In this document: positions 2,720 through 13,375 of the stretch, piece after piece | Layout of the letters: each line of letters begins with the position of its first letter | How positions within the stretch are numbered: position 1 is the first letter of the stretch | Assembly: GCA_023137655.1 (NCBI GenBank) | Contig: JAGLOT010000003.1 | Coordinates: forward strand, 1 to 13,408 | Length of the DNA: 13,408 bases | Source: Nanobdellota archaeon | GTDB lineage: Archaea; Nanobdellota; Nanobdellia; Woesearchaeales; BS150m-G63 | Reading direction: 5' to 3' | The notes under the pieces: model-generated | The model's database searches: none | What the model saw: only the letters and a program-made list of their open reading frames with translations | What the model was told of the DNA's origin: nothing | Translations under genes and position numbers: made by a program

Positions 2720-3436
2720 ATGGAAATTTCAATTGTACTTCCAGCATATAATGAAGAAAAAAGGATAGGCCTTACATTAAAAAAAGTTATAAAATACTGT
2801 AAATTAAATTTTGATAGGTATGAAATAATAGTTGTAGATGATGGCTCAAAAGATAATACTTCAAAAATAGTAAATAATTATTCTAATAATAATGTTAAAT
2901 TATTAAAAAATAAAAAGAATATGGGGAAGGGATATTCAGTTAAACGGGGGATATTAAATGCAAAATATTCCATAGTTTTATTTTCAGATAGTGATTTAGC
3001 AACACCCATAGAAGAACTCAAAAACTTTTTACCTCATATTAAAAAGTATGATGTTTTAATAGGTTCTAGAAAACTTAAAAATTCTAATATTAAAATAAAA
3101 CAACCAGTACATAGGCAATTGATGGGGAAAGTTTTCCCTTTGTTTGTTAGATTAATTGCATTAAGAGGTTTTAAAGATACTCAATGTGGTTTTAAATTAT
3201 TTAAAACATCTGTCGCAAAAAAAATAGTGAAATTACAAACATTTAATAGATTTTCTTTTGATGTAGAGATTTTATTTATTGCAAAAAAGAAAGGTTATAA
3301 AATCAAGGAATTACCTGTTGTTTGGATAGATCAAGAAAATAGTACTGTGGATCCGGTTAAGGATGGGATTAGGATGGTTTTAGATATATCCAAAATTAGA
3401 TATAATCATATGTTAAAAAAATATGGGGTGGAGTGA
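2720..3436 (+). CDS. Polyprenyl-phosphate glycosyltransferase, GT2 family (DPM1/ALG5-like)
   Basis: Transfers a sugar from a nucleotide donor to dolichyl/polyprenyl phosphate on the cytoplasmic face. The GT-A fold signature is complete: SIVLPAYNEE (4-13), VVDDGS (38-43), the GKGYSVKRG loop (69-77) typical of dolichyl-phosphate sugar synthases, the metal-binding DSD at 90-92, GSR (115-117), the QCGFKLF block (155-161) and FDVEIL (180-185) followed by ELPVVW. The FKDTQCGFKLF and FSFDVEILFIAKKKGYKIKELPV blocks match the ALG5/DPM1-like group of about 240 residues. There are no C-terminal membrane helices, unlike GtrB or ArnC enzymes, so it should be membrane-associated only. The gene is first in a two-gene operon, with one base separating its stop from the preferred start of the putative flippase gene. 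The sugar (glucose or mannose) is not decidable. Confidence 0.93.
   Translation: MEISIVLPAYNEEKRIGLTLKKVIKYCKLNFDRYEIIVVDDGSKDNTSKIVNNYSNNNVKLLKNKKNMGKGYSVKRGILNAKYSIVLFSDSDLATPIEELKNFLPHIKKYDVLIGSRKLKNSNIKIKQPVHRQLMGKVFPLFVRLIALRGFKDTQCGFKLFKTSVAKKIVKLQTFNRFSFDVEILFIAKKKGYKIKELPVVWIDQENSTVDPVKDGIRMVLDISKIRYNHMLKKYGVE
3427..3433 (+). promoter_or_regulatory. Shine-Dalgarno-like site deciding the flippase start
   Basis: The sequence GGTGGAG lies 4 bases before the ATG at 3438 and pairs well with the conserved archaeal anti-SD. It favours 3438 over an in-frame ATG at 3423 that overlaps this site and the previous gene. Confidence 0.5.
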
Positions 3437-3437
3437 A

Positions 3438-3782
3438 ATGGCTATAAAAATATCATTAATTTTACTTGTTGCTTTTTGTGCCTTATTGGGTGCTGCAGGA
3501 CAAGTTTTTTTTAAATTAGCATCAAAAGATTTAAGTTTTCAAATAATGTCCTTATTGACTAATTGGAAATTATTTTTGGGATTGTTTTTGTATGGAGTCG
3601 CTACAATCCTTTTCATATATGCACTTAAACAAGGTAATTTGTCTGTTTTATATCCTATTATTGCAACAAGTTATATTTGGGTGAGTATTTTCTCAGTTAA
3701 ATTTTTAGGAGAAACATTTGCCCCATTTAAGTGGGTGGGAATTTTATTAATTATTTTAGCGATTGGGATAATTACTCGTTAA
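3438..3782 (+). CDS. Small EamA/SMR-type membrane transporter, putative lipid-linked sugar flippase
   Basis: A 114-residue protein with four transmembrane segments at about residues 4-26, 46-64, 69-90 and 95-112, the size and layout of the small multidrug resistance/EamA half-transporters that act as dimers. GQVFFKLA at the end of helix 1 (21-28), YALKQGNLSVLYPI (61-74) and FLGE (89-92) before helix 4 are family hallmarks; the first two recall the ArnE/ArnF flippase subunits. The gene directly follows a polyprenyl-phosphate glycosyltransferase with a 1-base gap, so the inferred job is to flip the polyprenyl-phosphate sugar to the outer face for the divergent GT-C-like enzyme. Drug or metabolite export is the alternative. 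The start at 3438 is chosen for the GGTGGAG site; a start at 3423 would add five residues. Confidence 0.85.
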   Translation: MAIKISLILLVAFCALLGAAGQVFFKLASKDLSFQIMSLLTNWKLFLGLFLYGVATILFIYALKQGNLSVLYPIIATSYIWVSIFSVKFLGETFAPFKWVGILLIILAIGIITR

Positions 3783-3798: not shown

Positions 3799-4377
3799 TT
3801 AATTTATTTGATAAATATCTTTATCTCTTGGAGTAACTTTGAATTTTTTTTGTATGTTGATTTTGGTCTTTAATTGAAAATCACAACTTAAATCAGGTGA
3901 ACCTTTCCTGAAACTAGTATAAACTATATTCTTGGTTATTAATTTACATTTATTAATTAATCTAGTATAGGGGTTGATAGAATTATTATAACTACAATAT
4001 TGAAATAATTGGTTACTTAATGTTTGTTTACTGGTTTGATTTATTAATCGATGGTCTGGATGAGTATCATAATCTGGGATATAAACAAGGTCTGTTTTAT
4101 TGACTTCTTTTTTTAAGAATTGTTTGAGTTTATTAATATTTATTTTTCTAGATGTTTCATTTAAACATTTAATTTGATAGTTAAATTTTTTACTTAATTC
4201 TTTTGAAACAAGAATCCTTCTTTTTAATCCTTTGGTGCTTTTTTCATATATTGATTTGGATGTGATGATTAAAACTTTAACTTTTTGTTTATGGGATAAG
4301 GTTTCTAGAATTTTACATCCACAACCAATCCATTCATCGTCTGGGTGTGGTGCTATTATAACTATGTTTTGAGACAT
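3799..4377 (-). CDS. PIG-L family zinc-dependent N-deacetylase
   Basis: Expected to remove the N-acetyl group from an amino sugar in a glycan or glycolipid precursor (the family includes GlcNAc-PI, MshB and BshB deacetylases). The catalytic motif PHPDDE lies at residues 10-15 and the second zinc/active-site motif HPDH at 106-109, so H11, D14 and H109 are available as ligands and D13 as the general base: the enzyme looks active. Its 192 residues are somewhat shorter than the usual 220-260. It has its own promoter, whose TATA box overlaps the stop codon of the upstream FemAB-like gene, so it can be transcribed independently of the long glycan operon. Its neighbour suggests that the freed amine may be re-acylated or aminoacylated. 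The exact substrate is unknown. Confidence 0.93.
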   Translation of the reverse strand: MSQNIVIIAPHPDDEWIGCGCKILETLSHKQKVKVLIITSKSIYEKSTKGLKRRILVSKELSKKFNYQIKCLNETSRKININKLKQFLKKEVNKTDLVYIPDYDTHPDHRLINQTSKQTLSNQLFQYCSYNNSINPYTRLINKCKLITKNIVYTSFRKGSPDLSCDFQLKTKINIQKKFKVTPRDKDIYQIN

Positions 4378-4398
4378 GATTTAAATTTGATAAATTAC

Positions 4399-4406
4399 TT
4401 TATAAA
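4399..4406 (-). promoter_or_regulatory. TATA box for PIG-L gene, overlapping the upstream stop codon
   Basis: TTTATAAA preceded on the minus strand by GAAAGA. Its centre is about 26 bases from the ATG at 4377, predicting a leaderless transcript. It covers the TAA stop (4400-4402) of the FemAB-like gene. Confidence 0.62.
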
Positions 4407-5014
4407 TCTTTCTTATACTTAAGTTTTTTTTGAATTTCGTATTTTAATTTTCGTAATATTTTACTGTGCCTTAACCATCTCCACCAAATATATTTGATAA
4501 GGTTGATTTTATTTTCTTTTTTGATGATTTCGCCACCCCACCTTATTTTAAAGGTGTCTATATTTTTTAAGTATTTAGAGTGTATATTTATTCCACCAAG
4601 ATCAAAATATTGATATCCTTTTTTCTTAAAATACAATAATATTTTCCAATATAATAGGACATTTGCTTGGGTATTCCTATATTCATAATCACTTGAGTTA
4701 TATGTTAAACTTATAGTGTCTTTACTTTTAGTATTAACAATTGCAAACCCAATAATTTTTTTATTTAATAAAACAACAAAAAGAAATCCATTATCAAATA
4801 TATTAGAATTTGGATGGAGATAATTAATTTCACAAGTTTTTTGGTATAATTCATAACATTTTTTATGGTCTTGCTTTTTTCCTGGCCTAAAAACTACCTT
4901 ATTTTTAATGGCTTTTTTAATGGACCACCTATGATTTTTATGAATCTGTTTAGTGAATAATTCTTCTTCAGATTTTTCAAGGTTTATAATAACAATTCCA
5001 TGTTTTAGTTTCAT
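4400..5014 (-). CDS. FemAB-like GNAT acyl/aminoacyltransferase
   Basis: A 204-residue single GNAT-type domain of the FemAB/BioF2-like group. Visible family features are HRWSIKKAIKNKV (28-40), matching the w.irkA...GV segment that opens the second FemX domain; a GNAT core strand with FVVLLNKKIIGFAIV (79-93); and YFDLGGI....DTFKIRWGGEII (136-163), the near-diagnostic YDLGG...FKxxFGG block. Bacterial FemABX proteins have two such domains (about 330-420 residues); here only one is present, so it is a short form. They transfer amino acids from aminoacyl-tRNA, or acyl groups, to amines. Here the target may be an amino sugar exposed by the PIG-L deacetylase; that is inference. The ATG overlaps the stop of the upstream fusion gene by four bases (ATGA), indicating translational coupling. 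Confidence 0.82.
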   Translation of the reverse strand: MKLKHGIVIINLEKSEEELFTKQIHKNHRWSIKKAIKNKVVFRPGKKQDHKKCYELYQKTCEINYLHPNSNIFDNGFLFVVLLNKKIIGFAIVNTKSKDTISLTYNSSDYEYRNTQANVLLYWKILLYFKKKGYQYFDLGGINIHSKYLKNIDTFKIRWGGEIIKKENKINLIKYIWWRWLRHSKILRKLKYEIQKKLKYKKDL

Positions 5015-6645
5015 TTTTTATAACAAATATAATAATTTGTACCTTTATTAGACATTTTGATTATTTTTGAAAATCCTACTTTTTTAGGTTCATCTAAGGA
5101 ATTATTTTTACAATATGTTTTTAAGCCACCAAATTGGTGCTTTTCATATCTGTAATTGTTAAATGCAAAAATACTATGGATCATACTTTTGATATAGTGT
5201 ATTCGAATAAATGGGTATTTTGTATATATTGGAGATTTTAAATAAAATCTTTTGTGTGAAGAATATATAAATACCCCTCCTTTTTTTAATATTCTAAACG
5301 ATTCTTTCATACATCTAATTCTTTTTTCATAGGGGGCTAAATAATCAATCCCATTATAACTAAAGAATACAGTATCAAAAGTTTTATTTTTAAATTTTAA
5401 ATTTGAAGCATTCATGATTCTAAAGTCAATATTTGGAAATTTTTCTTTTGCCTTTTTTATTAAATTGGTGGCATAATCAATTCCAATAACCTTAAATCCT
5501 TTTTTGTATAAATTAATTGTAGTCCTTCCACAACCACAACCCATATCTAATACTTTATTTTTTTTAAAATACTTGCCTATAATCATTTTTTCTTTAGGCA
5601 TTAGATGTTCTAAATCATAAATTTTAGTGGAATTGTTAAATGAAACTAAATTTAAATCTGTTTTTTTAATCATTTTTTTAAATTTTGTTGAAAAAGTGCT
5701 GGTGGATTTTGTATTGTGGTATTTTTTTGCAATAATCCTTGATTTATTTGAAAGCATAATCAATTCTTTTTTGGATAACTTTTGTAAATCAGTTATTTTA
5801 TTTAAATATGCCTTATAATCAAATGAATTTATTATTAAGGTAGGGTCTAATTCTTCAACTAAATCCTTATTTCCTGTTTTATATGAAACAATTGGAATTA
5901 ATCCTGCGGCCATTGATTCTATTACTGATGTGCCACCTGCATCAAATCTAGACGGGAATAAGAGGAATAAACTTTTTGCCATATAGTTAATTGGGGGTTT
6001 AAAACCAGTAAAATGAAGATTTTTAAGGTGATTATATTTATTGTAAATTTTTTGTGCCTTCCAAATATCCCCTAAGATATAAACTTCATATTTAATTTTA
6101 CTTGCAATTTTTGCAGAAATATCTGTACCTTTTCCAAGACGTGTTTTAATACCGATAGATAATATTGATTTTGTTTTAAAATTGGGTTTATTTTTAAAAT
6201 AATTCGGATTTAATACAGGAGTATATAAATAATCTAGGGGGATTTTATTATTATACTTTTTCAATTTCTTTTTTAACATTTTAGATATGATAAATACTCC
6301 ATCTAGTTTTTTAGCCAATGGTTTATAGAATGCTTTTTTTAAAAAAAAGTTAGATTCAAACCTTGCATCATTAAGTCGAAGAATTAATTTACAATTTTCA
6401 TGCCTTAATGTTTTTTTCAAATAACCTAGAAACATGGAACTTGGACTATTCAATAAATATATGTCATGTTTAGGTATTTTAAAACATAAATACCAAGAAT
6501 TTATTAATTCTATTAGAATTTTTAAGGTCCCATTTTTTATGCAAGTGGGTGATTTGTTATAATAGATAGTTTGAGTGACCTGATTAAATGAGTCCTTGGC
6601 AGACTTATGTATGGAGCCCCCAGTTAAAATTGCAATTTTAATCAT
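5011..6645 (-). CDS. Bifunctional GT4 glycosyltransferase - SAM methyltransferase fusion
   Basis: A 544-residue two-domain protein. Residues 1-330 are a GT-B glycosyltransferase of family 4: an N-terminal Rossmann half starting MIKIAILTGGS, a central LSIGIKTRLGKG (162-173) where the donor half begins, and the donor-site helix FDAGGTSVIESMAAGLIPIVS (234-254) with E243, followed by GNKDLVEE. Residues 345-544 are a class I methyltransferase: motif I VLDMGCGCG (365-373), the SAM-ribose acid D390 in IGID, FDTVFFSYNG (423-432) as motif IV, and LKKGGVFIYSSH. A sugar would be added and that sugar or a neighbour methylated in the cytoplasm; substrate is unknown. The start at 6645 is preferred over 6678 because it begins the canonical first strand and gives an ATGA four-base overlap with the upstream stop, whereas 6678 adds 11 residues and a 37-base overlap. 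Confidence 0.9.
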   Translation of the reverse strand: MIKIAILTGGSIHKSAKDSFNQVTQTIYYNKSPTCIKNGTLKILIELINSWYLCFKIPKHDIYLLNSPSSMFLGYLKKTLRHENCKLILRLNDARFESNFFLKKAFYKPLAKKLDGVFIISKMLKKKLKKYNNKIPLDYLYTPVLNPNYFKNKPNFKTKSILSIGIKTRLGKGTDISAKIASKIKYEVYILGDIWKAQKIYNKYNHLKNLHFTGFKPPINYMAKSLFLLFPSRFDAGGTSVIESMAAGLIPIVSYKTGNKDLVEELDPTLIINSFDYKAYLNKITDLQKLSKKELIMLSNKSRIIAKKYHNTKSTSTFSTKFKKMIKKTDLNLVSFNNSTKIYDLEHLMPKEKMIIGKYFKKNKVLDMGCGCGRTTINLYKKGFKVIGIDYATNLIKKAKEKFPNIDFRIMNASNLKFKNKTFDTVFFSYNGIDYLAPYEKRIRCMKESFRILKKGGVFIYSSHKRFYLKSPIYTKYPFIRIHYIKSMIHSIFAFNNYRYEKHQFGGLKTYCKNNSLDEPKKVGFSKIIKMSNKGTNYYICYKK

Positions 6646-7367
6646 TTTTGGATAATAAAAAAGTATTGTGAGGCACATTTACCCTTAAATAATCTTTTAA
6701 ATATATTATTTAGTTTTAAATAATTCTTGAAATATAATTTATTTGTTTTAAATATCAAAGGTAAATAAAAAGAAGGGAGTATTTTTAATTTCTTTTTATT
6801 TATTTTGAAATACTTAATTGCAGATTTAGTATAATATGATTTGGGCATTGTTTTTTGTTTAAATCCTAGGATATGTTTGATTAATTTGAAATTTTGACCA
6901 AATCCACTTAGGCTGAATTTATTATTAACTTCAAAGATAACTAACTTTTTAGATACCCTTAACATTTCGTCATATGCCTTTTTTGGATTTTCTAAATGCA
7001 TTAGGACATGTACAGAAAAAACTACATCAAACTCATTATCCTTAAATGGCAAATTATAAGCATCTCCTTGAATTGTTTTGATATCCTTGTTAGTTTTTTT
7101 TAATACCCCTAACATACTTTTTGAAAAATCTAAACCATATAGATTTTTATATCCTTTTTTATTTAAAGAATTTAAGAATCTGCCGGTACCACATCCAACT
7201 TCTAATATTTTAATATTTTTTTTATATGATGAAATGTTGTTTAGAATAATTTTAGTTTGTAAATTATGCATAATTTTTCCCTTAGGATTATTTTTAAATC
7301 TATTATTATACAGTTTTGCACTTTCTTCATAGAAAGATTTGATGTATTTATCATTAATTTTTGACAT
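6642..7367 (-). CDS. Class I SAM-dependent methyltransferase (Methyltransf_11 type)
   Basis: A 241-residue methyltransferase acting on an unknown small-molecule, lipid or sugar acceptor. Motif I is ILEVGCGTG (54-62), the ribose-binding acid is D80 in GLDFS, motif III is QGDAYNLPF (100-108) and motif IV DVVFSVHVLMHL (114-125). The C-terminal part (about 150-241) carries a basic, hydrophobic lid that would define the substrate. It resembles the methyltransferase encoded at 12668-13375 in motif spacing and in the VLxHL block, so the two may be paralogues flanking the same locus. It is translationally coupled (ATGA) to the GT4-methyltransferase gene. The 42-base gap before it contains a weak TATA-like sequence. 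Confidence 0.92.
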   Translation of the reverse strand: MSKINDKYIKSFYEESAKLYNNRFKNNPKGKIMHNLQTKIILNNISSYKKNIKILEVGCGTGRFLNSLNKKGYKNLYGLDFSKSMLGVLKKTNKDIKTIQGDAYNLPFKDNEFDVVFSVHVLMHLENPKKAYDEMLRVSKKLVIFEVNNKFSLSGFGQNFKLIKHILGFKQKTMPKSYYTKSAIKYFKINKKKLKILPSFYLPLIFKTNKLYFKNYLKLNNIFKRLFKGKCASQYFFIIQK

Positions 7368-7409: not shown

Positions 7410-8090
7410 TCACTCTATTAAGTGGCCTTCATGTGTGAATAAGAGAATCTCCTTGATATCTTCCATTTTTTGGAAATCATCCAATAAAGCTTGTTCATTA
7501 TTTTGTTTGATTGTTAATTCAATGGATATCTCACATCCGCTCTTCTTGGAATAAATAGTACTTCGGGTTTTATAATTTTTACAGTATTTTTTTAAACTCT
7601 TATTTATTTCAACTTTTTTAATGGAATTAGTTTTTAATATTAACAAATGTTGAGTTTTAAATGTCATATATTTAGATGAGATGAGTACTAATGCCGCTAT
7701 AAAGAATGTGGATATAATTGATAATTTGTATAATCCTACTCCTGCAGTAATACCTATGGAAACTGCCCAAAATAAAAATGCAACATCTTTTGGGTCTTTT
7801 ATAGCTGTCCTGAATCTTATGATTGATAATGCACCAACCATACCCAAAGATAATGCAAAACTTCCACTAATCGCCTTCATAAGTACAGCAACTATAAGGG
7901 TGATTAGTATTAACGTAATATTGAAGTTTTTTGAATATAATATCCCAGAATATGTTTTTTGGTATATATAGTAAATAATTAGGGATAGCATTAAAGCAAT
8001 TGTTAGACTAATAAAAATTTCTTTAATACTAAAAGAGCTTATTAGTGTGGTTGATCCGCTGAATATGTCTTGGAATGTTATTTGTGCCAT
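7410..8090 (-). CDS. DUF4956 integral membrane protein
   Basis: A 226-residue membrane protein of uncharacterised family DUF4956. Hydrophobic segments lie at about residues 22-42, 56-73, 78-92, 101-119 and 123-138, followed by a cytoplasmic C-terminal domain (140-226) of mixed alpha/beta character. The family signature is intact: SLGMVGALSIIRFRTAIKDP (81-100) and KDVAFLFWAVSIGI (101-114). The conserved RFR...KDPKD stretch between helices resembles that of MgtC-type proteins and is unusually polar for a membrane boundary. Biochemical function is unknown. The gene directly follows the VTC-domain gene (10-base gap) and the CotH gene, the association in which I know this family. A channel or translocase for the product of the VTC enzyme is one hypothesis. 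Confidence 0.92.
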   Translation of the reverse strand: MAQITFQDIFSGSTTLISSFSIKEIFISLTIALMLSLIIYYIYQKTYSGILYSKNFNITLILITLIVAVLMKAISGSFALSLGMVGALSIIRFRTAIKDPKDVAFLFWAVSIGITAGVGLYKLSIISTFFIAALVLISSKYMTFKTQHLLILKTNSIKKVEINKSLKKYCKNYKTRSTIYSKKSGCEISIELTIKQNNEQALLDDFQKMEDIKEILLFTHEGHLIE

Positions 8091-8095
8091 TTTAT

Positions 8096-8100
8096 CTCCC
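8096..8100 (-). promoter_or_regulatory. Shine-Dalgarno site of the DUF4956 gene
   Basis: On the minus strand GGGAG (within GAGGGAGAT) ends five bases before the ATG at 8090. It is one of the clearest ribosome binding sites in the window and occurs at an operon-internal gene, in contrast to the leaderless first genes. Confidence 0.6.
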
Positions 8101-8790
8101 TCAAGGTACTATTTTGTTTAATCTACCTATGCAATACTTACTTATTGCACATTTTTCGAATTTGGGTAGTTGAATAAGCTTTTTAATCCATACAGGTAAA
8201 AACTTATCAAATTTTATTTCTAATATGATATTATTCTGATTTAATAATTTATGGGTTACTATTGAATCCGAGAATATATTAAAGTTACTATTATTTATTT
8301 GAAGATTTTGATCAAATGTGATTCTGATATTATTTAATTCATGCATATACGCATCCCTATAGTAATCAATTATTATTACAGGTTTTAATTTTTGAGTCTT
8401 AAAATTTATATAAATTTTATTTAATATCTGATTTTTATATTTTAATAGGGGTTCATAATCACCTTCAATGATTTTTAAGGCATCATTATATTCAATTATA
8501 CCTGTTTGTTTTAATACCTGATTATTAAATTTTTGCTTAATTTCAAATTTTACAGTTTTATCTTGTGTATTGTAAATTCTTAGTCTATATTTCTTCCTAG
8601 TTTCAATACCATCTAATTTTTCATGAACTGCCTGATCATTTATACTATCAAAATATAAACTTCTTATAAAATAAGGCCCATTTATTGCGTGTGGGTCAGG
8701 TTTCATAAACTTTTTTAAAATATTAGTTAAGTATATGTAATCTAGATAGGTAATATAAAATTTTAGTTCATTTCTTTTGATTTCTAGCAT
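8101..8790 (-). CDS. VTC-domain protein (polyphosphate polymerase-like triphosphate tunnel enzyme)
   Basis: A 229-residue stand-alone VTC domain of the CYTH/triphosphate tunnel superfamily; in yeast Vtc4 the domain makes polyphosphate from ATP. Tunnel-lining residues are recognisable in order: RSLYFDS (43-49), the basic YRLR (68-71, R69 and R71), FEIKQK (82-87, K85), YYRDAY (143-148, R145), RITFD (156-160, R156), the metal-ligand strand LEIKFD (190-195, E191) and ISKY (216-219, K218). By position these correspond to the residues known to bind triphosphate and metal in Vtc4, so catalytic competence is likely; polyphosphate as product is inferred. No membrane segment or signal peptide is present, so it should act in the cytoplasm. 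It sits between the CotH gene (5-base gap) and the DUF4956 gene (10-base gap). Confidence 0.92.
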   Translation of the reverse strand: MLEIKRNELKFYITYLDYIYLTNILKKFMKPDPHAINGPYFIRSLYFDSINDQAVHEKLDGIETRKKYRLRIYNTQDKTVKFEIKQKFNNQVLKQTGIIEYNDALKIIEGDYEPLLKYKNQILNKIYINFKTQKLKPVIIIDYYRDAYMHELNNIRITFDQNLQINNSNFNIFSDSIVTHKLLNQNNIILEIKFDKFLPVWIKKLIQLPKFEKCAISKYCIGRLNKIVP

Positions 8791-8795
8791 TTTAA

Positions 8796-11441
8796 TTATT
8801 TTCCTTTATTAAAATAGTTAGTATTATTTAATTGATAAACTTTCCCCATGCCATATATCTCTTTTTTTTGATAGGCAGTGATATTGATTTTATTATTTAG
8901 AAATGAATTATTAAATAGATATGCAATAGACAAATCCTTTATCGCAATAGCATTATAATTGTTTCTAAAATGGTTATTGTTTATTAAAACAGTAGATTGT
9001 TCCCCTATACTTAATCCTTTATCTTGGAAATTTAAAAAGGTATTGTTTGTTATGATTATTTGGGATCCACTAACATCTAGGCCATCCCCATTGTCATTAG
9101 CACCACCTATAAATACTGATTTTTTGATAATTCCATTACAAAAATCTAAATCTATTTGGTCTGCAGAATTTTTATAAAATTGGAGATTCTCTAGATGGGT
9201 ATTATTTGCATATTTGATATTTATACCATCATCTGCAGTGCCACCTTCAAAATAACTATTGTTTATTTTAACATTTTCAATGTGGTAGATAGATAAAGCC
9301 CCAGAAAAATAAATTCCATTAATAAAATGTTCATTACCATTTTTTATAATTAAATGATTAATTATGGTTTCTTTATTATTTGAATTTCCCACTACACCAA
9401 TAACCCCAAATGGTTTATTTTCATGTAATGGGGAGATGGTAACTTTTAAATTTTCTTCACCCAAAATATATGTGGGACTATAACTTATGATTGATTTGTT
9501 TTCACTGAGAAATATTTTTACCCCACCTTTAATAATAAAATTATATCCTTGAGGAATTATTATATTTTCTTTGATTTGATAGGTTCCAGAAGTTAAAATA
9601 ATATTTTCTTTATTTTCATAATTATCTTCTGTATCCTCAGAAAAGAACCAATTAATTGAATTATAGGTTTTAGAAAATGAGTCATAATCATAATTTTTTA
9701 AGTTTAAATAATTTTCATTATTATCTCCAATATTAAAATAAATATCATTAATTTCAATTTGTTGTTGTGATATTGAATTTTTAATGTTAAAATCCACATT
9801 AATTAATTTAATATTTTCAACGTCATTGAAAATTATTTCTACATTATAAGTTTTCTTTTTAGGATATAACTCATTATCTAAACCTGGGCTTAATTTTATT
9901 GTTTTCAAATCAGTAAGATTTACTTGGTTTCCATTGATAGATGTATTTAATACTTGGACCATATCATAATCACTTGAATTGATTTTTAATGTAATACTAG
10001 ATGACATATTGTCTTTAAATTTCAACACCATATTATTGATAATTAATGGAGATAACGAATCAGGCATTATTTCTAGATTGATTTTATTAGATTCTTGTAA
10101 TACATTAATATATACTTTGGAATATTCAAGGTTTTCTTTAATGAGTTTTAAATTAAACTTTATTGCATCTTCCATATCATGCATTCTTTTTCTTAACACA
10201 TAGGTACTTATTTTATTTTTTTTGTAAGAGGGTACAAAATTAATAGATTCTTTAATTAAAGATTGAATATCATTTTCTATTGAATTATTTTTGATTGTTT
10301 CATATAAAATTTGATTTCTCAAATCCCTTATTTCTGGATCTTGTATTAATGAAGAGAAGATAGGAATTTTTTTGTTTTGATAATAGAATAAATTATGTTC
10401 AAATCCCCCCTTTTCTAATTTTAATTTTTGGATTGTTTCTGCGATTGGTATGGGTTCAAATTTACCATTTGTTGTACAATATTTTAAATTTAAATTATCT
10501 CCACTAATCATATGTGGGCTTCCAATAATTGTGTGGAATGCCTCAAACCTTGCTATCTCTTCTTTATTAACATATTCTAATAACTTTTGAGAATCATTTT
10601 GGTTATATGCATTATAAAATTCATTTAAACTATTCAATATTTTTTGTTGGTCTAATTCTGTTTTGATTTCTTTTGAATTGCTGATATCTGTGATAAAATA
10701 TGTGATGTGGCCAGTGTTGTTAAATGGGCTATTATAATCATCACGGCCCTTAATTATAACACAATTAGATAGCTTGTTTTTTTCTAACATATCTTTATCA
10801 ATATTTTCTTGTAATGAATATAACCCTTGTGGGACCCCATTTATTTGTAAATTAACTATATCTCTTTTTATGTTTAATTGGTTCAATTCTTTATTTATAA
10901 TCTGAGAAATCATTTCACTTATAGTTCGATCTTCGAATATTGTTAAATGGAATGTTCTTACCCTACTTATTGAATCATTAATTATTTTTATTTTATAGGA
11001 TTTTAAGTTACTTTCCCAGTGATTGGATCCATCACCTTTAATCTTAATTTTAATAGGGTATTTAGTATTATTATAAAAAAATGTTGCTTCCCTCCAGTTT
11101 TGGGGGACTAAGTACCCATTCTCCAAAGAAATTTTGGAATTTAAATCAATGTAATTTAAATCATTTGTAGATAATTTAATGTTATAAGTAGGTAAATCTT
11201 GGTTTATTAATGATTTCTCATAATAAATGGGGAGTATATTTTCCATTTCTAATAATAATGTATTTATTTTCTTAGGATTGATTTTAGAAGTAATGAAGTT
11301 TTTTAATGTCTCAAGGTTTACAGTAATTGTCGAACTTTTTGGATTGATTTTAAGGTTAATTGTATTTTGAGATATTATAACGGAAACTAATAATAATATG
11401 ATAAAAATTAAGATCCCATACTTTATTTTAGTTTTATTCAT
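8796..11441 (-). CDS. Membrane-anchored CotH-type kinase fused to a right-handed parallel beta-helix
   Basis: An 881-residue extracellular protein. A lysine-rich start and one hydrophobic segment (8-24) act as signal anchor. The CotH domain covers about 90-430: IKIKGDGSNHW..NLKSYKIKI (132-153) is the family's nucleotide-binding RG.S...K.y block, NLQINGVPQGLYSLQENIDK (197-216) the NG..qG.Y.l.E block, and GDNLNLKY (314-321) the D-N segment. CotH of Bacillus phosphorylates serines of spore-coat proteins. The expected PWD acid is replaced here by PIAE (332-335). Residues 450-600 look like beta-sandwich linker. Residues 610-870 form a beta-helix with about six coils ending NNSYF, ENLQF, KKSVF, TNNTF, NNNHF and FNNSF, with stacked aspartates in DDGI, DQIDLD and GDGLD. 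The helix may bind or process a polysaccharide. ATG at 11471 would add 10 residues and overlap the GT4 gene by 17 bases. Confidence 0.9.
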   Translation of the reverse strand: MNKTKIKYGILIFIILLLVSVIISQNTINLKINPKSSTITVNLETLKNFITSKINPKKINTLLLEMENILPIYYEKSLINQDLPTYNIKLSTNDLNYIDLNSKISLENGYLVPQNWREATFFYNNTKYPIKIKIKGDGSNHWESNLKSYKIKIINDSISRVRTFHLTIFEDRTISEMISQIINKELNQLNIKRDIVNLQINGVPQGLYSLQENIDKDMLEKNKLSNCVIIKGRDDYNSPFNNTGHITYFITDISNSKEIKTELDQQKILNSLNEFYNAYNQNDSQKLLEYVNKEEIARFEAFHTIIGSPHMISGDNLNLKYCTTNGKFEPIPIAETIQKLKLEKGGFEHNLFYYQNKKIPIFSSLIQDPEIRDLRNQILYETIKNNSIENDIQSLIKESINFVPSYKKNKISTYVLRKRMHDMEDAIKFNLKLIKENLEYSKVYINVLQESNKINLEIMPDSLSPLIINNMVLKFKDNMSSSITLKINSSDYDMVQVLNTSINGNQVNLTDLKTIKLSPGLDNELYPKKKTYNVEIIFNDVENIKLINVDFNIKNSISQQQIEINDIYFNIGDNNENYLNLKNYDYDSFSKTYNSINWFFSEDTEDNYENKENIILTSGTYQIKENIIIPQGYNFIIKGGVKIFLSENKSIISYSPTYILGEENLKVTISPLHENKPFGVIGVVGNSNNKETIINHLIIKNGNEHFINGIYFSGALSIYHIENVKINNSYFEGGTADDGINIKYANNTHLENLQFYKNSADQIDLDFCNGIIKKSVFIGGANDNGDGLDVSGSQIIITNNTFLNFQDKGLSIGEQSTVLINNNHFRNNYNAIAIKDLSIAYLFNNSFLNNKINITAYQKKEIYGMGKVYQLNNTNYFNKGK

Positions 11442-11454
11442 TTTTATGCTATGA

Positions 11455-12615
11455 TTAAAATTTAGCCTCATTTATCAATTTATCAATTAGAGTAATATAT
11501 TTTTGGCTTATTTTATTAATATCAAATTGTTTAGATAATATATATCCTTTATGTTTTAATTCTTTCTGAAGGTCTTTATTCTTTAATAATTTGTTTATTT
11601 GATTAGAAATATCTAATGGGTTTTTGGGTAAAGCATATAAAATATTATTTTGGAAAACTAGTTTTAATTCTTTTAGTTTGCTAGTAATCACAGGAGTTTT
11701 ACAACTTAAAGATTCTATTATGCAAGAAGGGTTAGATTCGGTGGAAGTTAATTGAGGGTAGGGTAAAACCACTACATCTGCAATGCTTAAAACTTCAATA
11801 ATAGGGGTTTTAGCAGATAAAATCTTAATTCTATGTTTGAATATATGATTTACTAATAGATCCTGATATTTATTTTTGTGGGAATTATCGCTAGGGATTA
11901 AAATTAGATTAATGGTTTTATTTTTAACTAATTTAAATGCTTCAATTAAATATTCAACACCTTTAAATCTATTAAAATGACCATAATATAGGATTATTTG
12001 TTTATTTTGTAAACCATATTTTTGTTTTAATTCCTTTTTGTTTTTTAGGGATTTAAATTTTAAGGTATTTATTGGAGAATTGATTAGTGTAATTTTTGTT
12101 TTAATTCCTTTTTGTTTTAATTCATATTTTAAAGATTTATTTTGAACGATTATCAAATCTAGTTTATTTAATAACCACTTATATGTATAATTACCAAAGT
12201 CAGATTTACTTTTGAATACATGAATTGTTTTTGTATTTTTATTAAATAATTTGAATAGTAAAGTACGTATAACTAATAAATTAGAAGCGCTAAATCCAAT
12301 AACTAAATCCAATTTAAGGTCATTTTTCTTTTGAAATTTATAATAGGATAAAAAAGAAGCAGTAAGGTGGGTTAATGTTGCATTTAGATATTTTAAGGGT
12401 CTAAATGATTTTGGAAATCCAGATATTTTAGAATATCGAATAATTTGTATATTCTTATAAATCTCCTTTTTCTTTTTTTTACGAATATTTCCTGTAAAAA
12501 TATATGTATTATATAATTTAGCAAATTTTTCAGCTAGTAGTTTAGTTGTAATATTACTTGCTTCATTTCGGTCTATTTCAAAGGAAGTCGGTAGGATAGC
12601 TATATTATTTTGCAT
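11455..12615 (-). CDS. GT4-family (GT-B) glycosyltransferase
   Basis: A 386-residue cytoplasmic glycosyltransferase expected to add a sugar from a nucleotide donor to a growing surface glycan. The acceptor half starts MQNNIAILPTSFEI and continues with a strand-helix pattern (DLVIGF at 103-108). The donor half begins ILYYGHFNRFKGVEYLIEAF (208-227), then VVVLPYP (281-287) and the signature ESNPSCIIESLSCKTPVITS (293-312) with E301, followed by KELKL. No membrane helix is evident. The open frame reaches upstream to 12714, but the start at 12615 is preferred: it opens the first beta-strand, avoids 47 bases of overlap with the divergent methyltransferase gene, and lies 26 bases from the centre of a TATA box. 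It is first in the run that continues with CotH, VTC and DUF4956. Donor and acceptor are unknown. Confidence 0.9.
   Translation of the reverse strand: MQNNIAILPTSFEIDRNEASNITTKLLAEKFAKLYNTYIFTGNIRKKKKKEIYKNIQIIRYSKISGFPKSFRPLKYLNATLTHLTASFLSYYKFQKKNDLKLDLVIGFSASNLLVIRTLLFKLFNKNTKTIHVFKSKSDFGNYTYKWLLNKLDLIIVQNKSLKYELKQKGIKTKITLINSPINTLKFKSLKNKKELKQKYGLQNKQIILYYGHFNRFKGVEYLIEAFKLVKNKTINLILIPSDNSHKNKYQDLLVNHIFKHRIKILSAKTPIIEVLSIADVVVLPYPQLTSTESNPSCIIESLSCKTPVITSKLKELKLVFQNNILYALPKNPLDISNQINKLLKNKDLQKELKHKGYILSKQFDINKISQKYITLIDKLINEAKF
12019..12118. repeat. Two perfect 26-base direct repeats inside the GT4 gene
   Basis: Copies at 12019-12044 and 12093-12118 are identical (T5-G-T4-AATTCC-T5-G-T4 on the plus strand), offset by 74 bases. 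Because 74 is not a multiple of three, the two copies are read in different frames (KKELKQK and QKGIKTK). The first 15 bases recur once more from 12109. The sequence is AT-rich and of low complexity. Confidence 0.75.
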
Positions 12616-12636
12616 ATAAAAATTAAATTCATAAGG

Positions 12637-12645
12637 TTTATATAT
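12637..12645. promoter_or_regulatory. Shared bidirectional TATA box between divergent GT4 and methyltransferase genes
   Basis: TTTATATAT on the plus strand and ATATATAAA on the minus strand. Its centre (12641) is 26 bases from the minus-strand ATG at 12615 and 27 from the plus-strand ATG at 12668. BRE-like purines occur on both sides (AAGG on the plus side, AAAAGA on the minus side). The 52-base intergenic region has no other good TATA box, so one element appears to serve two leaderless genes. Confidence 0.6.
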
Positions 12646-12667
12646 CTTTTCTATTTGTGAATGAATA

Positions 12668-13375
12668 ATGAAAACTCGCTTAAATTTTAAGACTAAGAAG
12701 GAATTTTTAACCAAATATGAAGCTATTGCAGAAGATTATGATTCTCAGAGATCAACAACTTTTGAGGACAAAAAAGTACTAAAAGAACAATTAAATATTA
12801 TTAATCAAATTATTAAAAAAAATCAACCGAAGAAGATACTTGAAGCAGGTTGTGGTACTGGGAGAATTTTAATTCCTTTGACTGCTAATGGAAATAAAAT
12901 CGATGGTTTTGATTTATCTAAAAATATGTTAAATCAATTATCTAAAAAAGATCCTAAAATTAGAACAAAAATTGGAGATATTGAAAAAATACCCTATAAA
13001 TCAGATACTTATGATTTAGTTTATTCAATCACTGTTTTAATACATCTTACTAATTTTGAAAAAGGATTTAGGGAGATGTATAGGGTTGCTAAAAAAGGAG
13101 GTTTAGTAGTATTTGATTTACCCAATAAATGTTCATTTTGGACTAGGTTATCTTTATTATTTGATCCAAATAAGAAAAGAACTAGATTATATTCCTTGAA
13201 GGAATTAAAGGAGTATTTTAAGGGTTATGAATATCAAATCACAGGTATCTTTTCATATGCAAGAACTTTTTATAAAATACATGTCCTGAGATATATAATT
13301 AATTTTTTAGATAATTATTTAAAATTACCAATTAGTCAAAGAACACAATTCATAGTTATTGTTAAGAAGAACTAG
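12668..13375 (+). CDS. Class I SAM-dependent methyltransferase (Methyltransf_11 type)
   Basis: A 235-residue methyltransferase with motif I ILEAGCGTG (57-65), the ribose-binding acid D82 in GFDLS, motif III IGDIEKIPY (102-110), motif IV DLVYSITVLIHL (116-127) and a KKGGLVVFDLP strand (142-152). The C-terminal region is aromatic and basic, as in enzymes acting on lipids or glycans, but the substrate is unknown. The N-terminal 50 residues are helical and lysine-rich. The start at 12668 is the only ATG in frame near the beginning and lies 27 bases from the TATA centre, so a leaderless transcript is expected; an out-of-frame ATG at 12661 is ignored. It resembles the methyltransferase at 6642-7367 and is probably a paralogue. 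Confidence 0.92.
   Translation: MKTRLNFKTKKEFLTKYEAIAEDYDSQRSTTFEDKKVLKEQLNIINQIIKKNQPKKILEAGCGTGRILIPLTANGNKIDGFDLSKNMLNQLSKKDPKIRTKIGDIEKIPYKSDTYDLVYSITVLIHLTNFEKGFREMYRVAKKGGLVVFDLPNKCSFWTRLSLLFDPNKKRTRLYSLKELKEYFKGYEYQITGIFSYARTFYKIHVLRYIINFLDNYLKLPISQRTQFIVIVKKN

Follow-up and report, generated by a model that had tools for sequence, protein, structure and literature searches.

The window analysed here, a stretch of 13,408 nucleotides from a Nanobdellota archaeon (contig JAGLOT010000003.1 of assembly GCA_023137655.1; all positions are window coordinates), carries three adjacent minus-strand genes encoding a CotH-like/right-handed beta-helix protein (8796..11471), a VTC-domain protein resembling polyphosphate polymerases (8101..8790) and an MgtC-like DUF4956 membrane protein (7410..8090). 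The reading proposed, tentatively and with somewhat less than even confidence, is that they encode a polyphosphate synthase which a membrane protein links to an anchored protein binding a surface polymer. VTC and DUF4956 would form the core of a trans-membrane module, in which the cytosolic VTC protein would convert ATP into polyphosphate, or a related phosphoanhydride, within its tunnel, and DUF4956, MgtC-like and bearing an ACT-like domain, would either conduct the chain outward or control its passage. The third gene would supply a partner, probably exported and variable with the lineage, which may be a canonical CotH kinase, a carbohydrate-binding Cthe_2159 protein or, as in the window, a CotH fold joined to a beta-helix. 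In the latter, the CotH part, having lost both catalytic aspartates, would probably act as a binding or scaffold domain, and an acidic ladder on the beta-helix would be the likely working surface, holding an anionic polymer or glycan at the cell surface via metal ions.

The three genes are separated by gaps of 5 bases (CotH/VTC) and 10 bases (VTC/DUF4956), and had been placed correctly in a preliminary description of this DNA. Only the choice of the CotH start differs, which had been set at the second ATG (11441, 881 amino acids, aa) instead of the first (11471, 891 aa). Pfam assigns the products to CotH (PF08757, expectation value (E) 7.7e-9, 35.9 bits against a cut-off of 23.8, residues 142-423), VTC (PF09359, E 1.2e-39, 136.7 bits against a cut-off of 23) and DUF4956 (PF16316, E 6.7e-15). 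That these families recur together had been stated in that description, and a neighbourhood survey covering 371 genomes of the phylum and 80 DUF4956 loci bears it out, revealing a real conserved unit. Within the order (60 genomes, the window's own included), VTC and DUF4956 exceed their cut-offs in one genome each, that of the window, two more giving weak DUF4956 matches below the cut-off, and CotH does so in 3/60. Across the phylum, VTC, DUF4956 and CotH were found over cut-off in 10, 8 and 9 genomes, respectively. All eight DUF4956 genomes fall within the nine with CotH (chance about 1e-15), and seven of the eight fall within those with VTC, which lies next door (chance about 5e-12); the eighth is represented by a 3,716-base contig that stops inside CotH, VTC possibly lying beyond. 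The trio is contiguous in the window and in six relatives, in the order CotH-VTC-DUF4956 in the window, L099 and L100, and DUF4956-CotH-VTC in L101-L104. No CotH or DUF4956 was present in the stretches read from the remaining three VTC genomes (G172, G177 and G186; loci L105-L107), whose frames of 425-461 aa show weak VTC similarity and are possibly another tunnel-enzyme family.

When GTDB genomes were scanned more widely with a DUF4956 profile, at least 588 relatives emerged. Ranked by similarity, the best 80 of these 588 were kept, and VTC, CotH and Cthe_2159 were called in them with profiles built in this analysis. VTC is present in 77 of these 80 loci, CotH in 61 and Cthe_2159 without CotH in 13, and six have neither partner. 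As regards the three loci without VTC, two (L009 and L059) begin no more than 250 bases from DUF4956, at contig ends, and the third (L028) has full flanks. The gene order is VTC-DUF4956-CotH in 42 loci (plus one with two CotHs), VTC-DUF4956 in 18 and CotH-VTC-DUF4956 in 14, with five others. Of the ten proteins scanned from CotH-less loci, Pfam identified nine as Cthe_2159, eight of them belonging to the 80 loci and one to a plasmid, and the remaining protein as a polysaccharide deacetylase; five of the 13 Cthe_2159 loci were called by a profile built from those nine proteins. The gene lies about 3 kb away on the opposite strand in L032 and L042, and adjacent but on the opposite strand in L073. 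Moreover, over 81 loci the VTC distances between pairs of loci correlate with those of DUF4956 (r 0.915, against at most 0.277 in 999 shuffles), which indicates that the pair travels together. VTC-DUF4956 is thus kept across bacteria and archaea while its partner may be a kinase, a beta-helix that binds carbohydrate or a protein combining both folds whose kinase site is lost, so that the pair, rather than the kinase, is the constant needing explanation. A surface polymer would be the simplest common denominator, in preference to protein phosphorylation. Of the 14 control genomes, those of Methanosarcina acetivorans and Corynebacterium glutamicum contain matches to all three families, these being per-genome matches that do not imply adjacency; only VTC and DUF4956 are matched in Bacteroides ihuae, and only CotH in Bacillus subtilis. 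A single-protein query of viral_contigs, sensitive to close relatives only, gave no viral VTC carriers. In the 80 loci, the commonest families among the 128 closest neighbour proteins are those of two-component systems (HATPase_c 13, HisKA 12, response regulator 10), and three of these proteins match purple-acid-phosphatase-type domains.

The layout of the three products had been described as a cytoplasmic VTC enzyme, a membrane DUF4956 protein and an extracellular CotH protein, and this agrees with the distribution of hydrophobic segments: none was detected in the window VTC protein (229 aa), nor in 86 of the 88 VTC frames found in all, and an N-terminal one is present in the window CotH protein (residue 13 on) and in 70/70 CotH frames of at least 450 aa. 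The DUF4956 protein (226 aa) also has the intact signature claimed for it, as seen in an alignment of 85 sequences; R92, F93 and R94 (7809..7817, minus strand) are invariant in 90/90 aligned sequences and in the 85/85, and K98 is so in the 85. Sequence comparison places it as kin of MgtC and not as a named member: the NCBIfam MgtC/SapB model is matched, at E up to 0.1, by 76 of the 85 DUF4956 proteins and the Pfam MgtC model by 35, the window protein giving E 1.1e-5 and 25.1 bits (cut-off 214) with the former and 15.2 bits (cut-off 31.4) with the latter. In its AlphaFold2 model (mean predicted local distance difference test score 87), five long helices are followed by a C-terminal beta-alpha-beta-beta-alpha-beta (ACT-like) domain. 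The part of Vtc1, the yeast channel subunit, had been suggested for this protein, a comparison that stands as analogy only, its matches being to MgtC/SapB models. At E up to 0.1 in Pfam, the window protein hits only DUF4956, EbsA and MgtC, with no Vtc1 match, and the Vtc1 domain family, which we take to be named DUF202, is missing from the 25 families displayed of the 32 matched by the 85 proteins. Homology to Vtc1 was considered and rejected on these family matches, and the model, with five long helices and an ACT-like tail, likewise differs from the three-helix membrane domain of Vtc1. In yeast, the basic channel residues K24 and R31 of Vtc1 are described as forming a positively charged path (PMC9911596), and by analogy the RFR residues of DUF4956 may form a like one.

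A second explanation, credible although rather unlikely, is that DUF4956 is not a conduit but a regulator of MgtC type, sensing or tuning the phosphate or energy state via its ACT-like domain and controlling the output of a surface polymer, with VTC making the internal pool that it reads. The MgtC/SapB similarity in 76/85 proteins, the ACT-like tail of the model and the prominence of two-component-system parts among the 128 neighbour proteins all point this way. Further support comes from Streptococcus intermedius, where SIR_1594, SIR_1593 and SIR_1592 are reported as the same trio (PMC12345266): in one medium, aggregation fell to less than half when the DUF4956 or the CotH gene was deleted, and Pel went up in the DUF4956 mutant and down in the CotH mutant (PMC12345266), so that loss of DUF4956 raises Pel while cutting aggregation. 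Nevertheless, loss of a VTC protein that feeds the regulator should have consequences, and the VTC mutant is described as still aggregating and making Pel, with no change reported (PMC12345266). In addition, the enzyme in the cytosol, the membrane protein and a partner with an N-terminal hydrophobic segment (70/70 CotH frames) are steadily combined, which favours something that crosses the membrane, and the invariant R92 and R94, beside membrane helices, would suit an anion path.

As for the enzyme itself, a Vtc4-like character of the window VTC protein is supported by profile comparison, in which a profile of five trio VTC proteins matches Vtc4 (9e-17) more strongly than it does Vtc2 and Vtc3. 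Its tunnel residues, previously said to be in place, proved so in an alignment of 81 of the 88 frames, where E8, K10, K67, R69, R71, E83, K85, K94, R145, R156, E191, K193 and K218 are invariant in 81/81. In a profile alignment, K10, R69, R71, K85, K94 and E191 are the equivalents of Vtc4 K200, R264, R266, K281, K294 and E426, the E191/E426 pairing resting on a sub-threshold local alignment. We take K200, K281 and K294 of Vtc4 to be tunnel residues, and the position of what is presumably R253 in Vtc4 is occupied by lysine (K58) in the window protein. R264, R266 and E426 are named as tunnel residues in PMC9911596. A difference is found in the R-x-E-x-K motif of the trio family, which has Glu where Vtc4 has Thr. 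Tunnel enzymes include triphosphatases, and both this fact and the altered motif would fit a VTC protein acting as a triphosphatase, or making another triphosphate-derived product and no long polyphosphate. Such an activity is judged improbable, since the best solved match is Vtc4, the catalytic polymerase subunit, and the equivalents of its six residues listed above are kept.

The third product had been called a CotH-type kinase, and here the assignment to a fold family stands (PF08757; PDB 5jd9), whereas the catalytic residues do not. Profile comparisons show a true CotH fold in the window domain (residues 142-423; 10203..11048, minus strand): hhalign gives 99.8% against 55 trio CotHs, the window protein being among them, and an 11-member CotH profile matches 5jd9 at E 3.4e-24. 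In Bacillus subtilis CotH, D228Q and D251A each inactivate the enzyme (PMC7821199). The equivalents in the window protein are H320 (10512-10514) and A344 (10440-10442) according to an 11-protein alignment, with which the profile-profile alignment agrees, and the two aspartates stand 23 apart in the 5jd9 sequence, the same spacing as 228 and 251. The loss of both makes phosphorylation by CotH at the window locus unlikely. When 76 proteins were aligned to the canonical CotH profile, both catalytic aspartates were found in 63, His first and Asp second in seven (six of the beta-helix class, namely L022, L026 and L101-L104, plus L118, which is truncated at its end), and no residues at these positions in six (five Cthe_2159 proteins and one fragment). 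The window protein, L068, L070, L099 and L100 are absent from this alignment and were read from others: in the window, L099, L100 and L068, the second Asp is replaced by A, N, N and Q and the first, as read from the alignment by eye, by H, K, Q and H, respectively, so that three relatives likewise lack both. L022, L026 and L070 have an Asp near the first position and may be active. A regular-expression search had suggested that the W-D motif was lost in all beta-helix CotHs; this was rejected, since these three keep W-D and, among the 11 aligned, only the window, L099, L100 and L068 are without Asp at that place. A CotH-domain tree of 30 proteins has a branch (100/98) that sets the 11 beta-helix proteins apart and unites those four in one subclade (96/94), with L068 on a long branch. 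Given that the subclade keeps G-D-N (D325, N326) and a glutamate (E345), it may have an altered chemistry.

The beta-helix fused to the window CotH (residues 610-880; 8832..9644, minus strand) had been missed in the preliminary description. It is matched by PF13229 (E 2.4e-10, 40.7 bits against a cut-off of 25.9) over residues 724-863, and a Pfam beta-helix is also found in L022, L026, L068 and L100; in L099 and L101-L104 Pfam gave no such match and the assignment rests on the alignment. The 11-protein alignment has 25 invariant columns, with 18/255 in the beta-helix against 6/230 in the CotH domain, and judging from these columns conservation has moved from the latter to the former. The invariant acidic residues of the beta-helix (D748, D771/774/776, D796/799, D817, E824, D846) are spaced roughly one coil apart, forming a ladder, and its conservation repeats with peaks at 22-25 residues. 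Against solved structures, single window proteins gave nothing useful, and the beta-helix profile gave weak matches, the best with E 0.018 (alpha-1,3-glucanase). Elsewhere, CotH open reading frames (ORFs) with lamin-tail and chitobiase/Fn3-type domains stand beside VTC-DUF4956 in L027, L045, L058 and L060.

These results bear directly on the scheme first put forward, in which polyphosphate made by VTC is exported by DUF4956 and then serves CotH, directly or as a derived nucleotide, in the phosphorylation of a surface protein or glycan. The conserved unit and the intact VTC tunnel agree with such a chain and, with both aspartates kept in 63/76 aligned proteins, it may hold for canonical bacterial trios. 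Nevertheless, it is very doubtful as an account of the window, where H320 and A344 take the place of residues whose single replacement kills B. subtilis CotH (PMC7821199). Nor can a kinase be the common denominator of the module, since 13/80 loci have Cthe_2159 and no CotH. Moreover, we know of no case in which polyphosphate serves as the phosphate donor of CotH, which also counts against the chain. Finally, the idea that the trio came together by chance inside a glycan locus, for which no support was found, the rarity of carriers in the order (VTC 1/60) notwithstanding, can be dismissed, being refuted by the conserved neighbourhood, the genome co-occurrence and the VTC-DUF4956 distance correlation.

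Several facts weigh against the preferred reading, that of a synthase coupled to a surface-polymer-binding protein. The sample of 80 loci leans towards the DUF4956 subfamily of the window, and CotH is also found on its own, neither VTC nor DUF4956 exceeding the cut-off in G015 and G030, two of the three genomes with CotH in the order; their CotH-like frames (L119 and L120) measure 942-981 aa, with no VTC or DUF4956 match in these genomes. Of 50 carrier genomes (49 bacterial; 48 with the trio and two, L010 and L073, with Cthe_2159 replacing CotH), 28 have PPK1 as well. A role of VTC as substitute for an absent PPK1 was considered and rejected: it fits the archaea (PPK1 in 0/8) but fails in this wider set. 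The mutant phenotypes of S. intermedius (PMC12345266) are not predicted by a simple chain of synthase, exporter and user, and Salmonella MgtC is described not as a channel but as a protein that acts on ATP synthase and PhoR (PMC12345266). Cthe_2159 is reported to bind cellulose and polygalacturonate (PMC6712302). A homology between it and the window beta-helix was discarded, none being detected (hhalign probability 0.4%), and PF14262 gave no match in the window protein at E up to 0.1. Only 8/13 Cthe_2159 partners show an N-terminal hydrophobic segment by a simple test, so that export of this partner is partly assumed.

A bolder form of the preferred reading may also be stated, although we consider it unlikely. 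VTC and DUF4956 could be a dedicated prokaryotic apparatus for polyphosphate secretion, independent of Pel and with an interchangeable outer partner, and in these archaea the pseudokinase-beta-helix protein could anchor polyphosphate to surface glycan via metal ions on its acidic ladder, giving a phosphate-based surface layer. The findings bear on how extracytoplasmic kinases such as CotH could work without ATP and on whether prokaryotes secrete polyphosphate deliberately.

The genes around the trio are in keeping with a surface role, and the glycan setting pointed out earlier is confirmed, glycan-type genes adjoining the trio in the window and in 5/6 archaeal relatives. In the window, the trio continues a same-strand run: upstream of CotH lies a GT4-type glycosyltransferase gene (11455..12714, minus strand), which overlaps the first CotH start by 17 bases, and the downstream part (3799..7367, minus strand), starting 42 bases past DUF4956, encodes a methyltransferase (6642-7367), a glycosyltransferase-methyltransferase fusion (5011-6678), a FemAB-like protein (4400-5014) and a PIG-L deacetylase (3799-4377). 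The fusion is a single ORF with a GT-B glycosyltransferase and a methyltransferase, and overlaps its two flanking genes by 4 and 37 bases. Further on, at 2720-3782, a GT2 glycosyltransferase gene overlaps that of a small EamA protein, which resembles the ArnE/ArnF undecaprenol-aminoarabinose flippase subunits (E 9e-11, under the cut-off). An archaeal origin of the locus is supported by kinship. The nearest DUF4956 among the matches listed belongs to a Woesearchaeota contig (48% identity), and the archaeal ribosomal protein S8e, found among the 14 control genomes only in four archaea, is present in 6/8 phylum genomes with DUF4956 and CotH; it was not matched in the window's own genome, which is 86% complete.

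A literature search, with preprints and most subscription papers outside its scope, gave no paper explaining the trio. The cotH, poly-phosphate polymerase and DUF4956 genes are described as accessory genes of Gram-positive pel loci (PMC7112168), and according to PMC12345266 the three-gene arrangement was not found outside Pel in the analyses of that paper. Contrary to this statement, the trio is found here mostly outside Pel. PelG is present in the fetched flanks of 6/80 loci (flanks of up to 8 kb, many shorter) and anywhere in 11 of the 50 carrier genomes, the other 39 giving no PelG match, although some genomes are incomplete; among the eight archaeal carriers (84-97% complete, seven with the whole trio) there is none, nor is there any in the window. 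The survey loosens the tie of the trio to Pel. Where they do meet, single ORFs joining PelG and CotH stand directly upstream of VTC-DUF4956 in three Paenibacillus loci (L015:3992-7255, L033:4152-7256 and L072:4158-7265), identified by Pfam in the first two and by a profile built in this analysis in the third. Clostridium perfringens is listed as having a VTC-CotH cluster as well (PMC2879425); in it, as in a Planococcus plasmid (L005:5389-12824), the genes after CotH encode an unknown protein, one with HEAT repeats and a glycosyltransferase, and the C. perfringens genes listed as 'tubulin/FtsZ GTPase' (222-226 aa, membrane, adjoining VTC; PMC2879425) are probably DUF4956.

In comparison with known systems, the yeast VTC complex, in which Vtc4 is catalytic and Vtc1 forms the channel (PMC9911596), shares with the window the Vtc4-equivalent tunnel residues and, here encoded beside VTC, a membrane protein; unlike it, the window VTC protein, with 229 aa, leaves no space for SPX, and its membrane partner gives no Vtc1 match and is MgtC-like with an ACT-like tail. 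The window DUF4956 model is close to the MgtC-plus-ACT description given in PMC12345266, which counts four membrane segments, but differs from MgtC/SapB in falling far below the curated cut-offs, in its own conserved RFR core and in its near-constant VTC neighbour. With the spore-coat kinase CotH of Bacillus (PDB 5jd9; PMC7821199) the window protein shares a fold family, and departs from it in both Asp positions, in the added beta-helix and in its N-terminal hydrophobic segment. Cthe_2159 (PF14262; PMC6712302) has in common with it a beta-helix and the third place beside VTC-DUF4956, which it takes in 13/80 loci. Finally, the window locus differs from the Pel accessory set (PMC7112168, PMC12345266) in being archaeal, in a genome with no PelG match, and in its CotH, which has a beta-helix attached and neither catalytic aspartate; the two nevertheless hold the same three families in one cluster, with a published DUF4956 counterpart that is likewise described as MgtC plus ACT.

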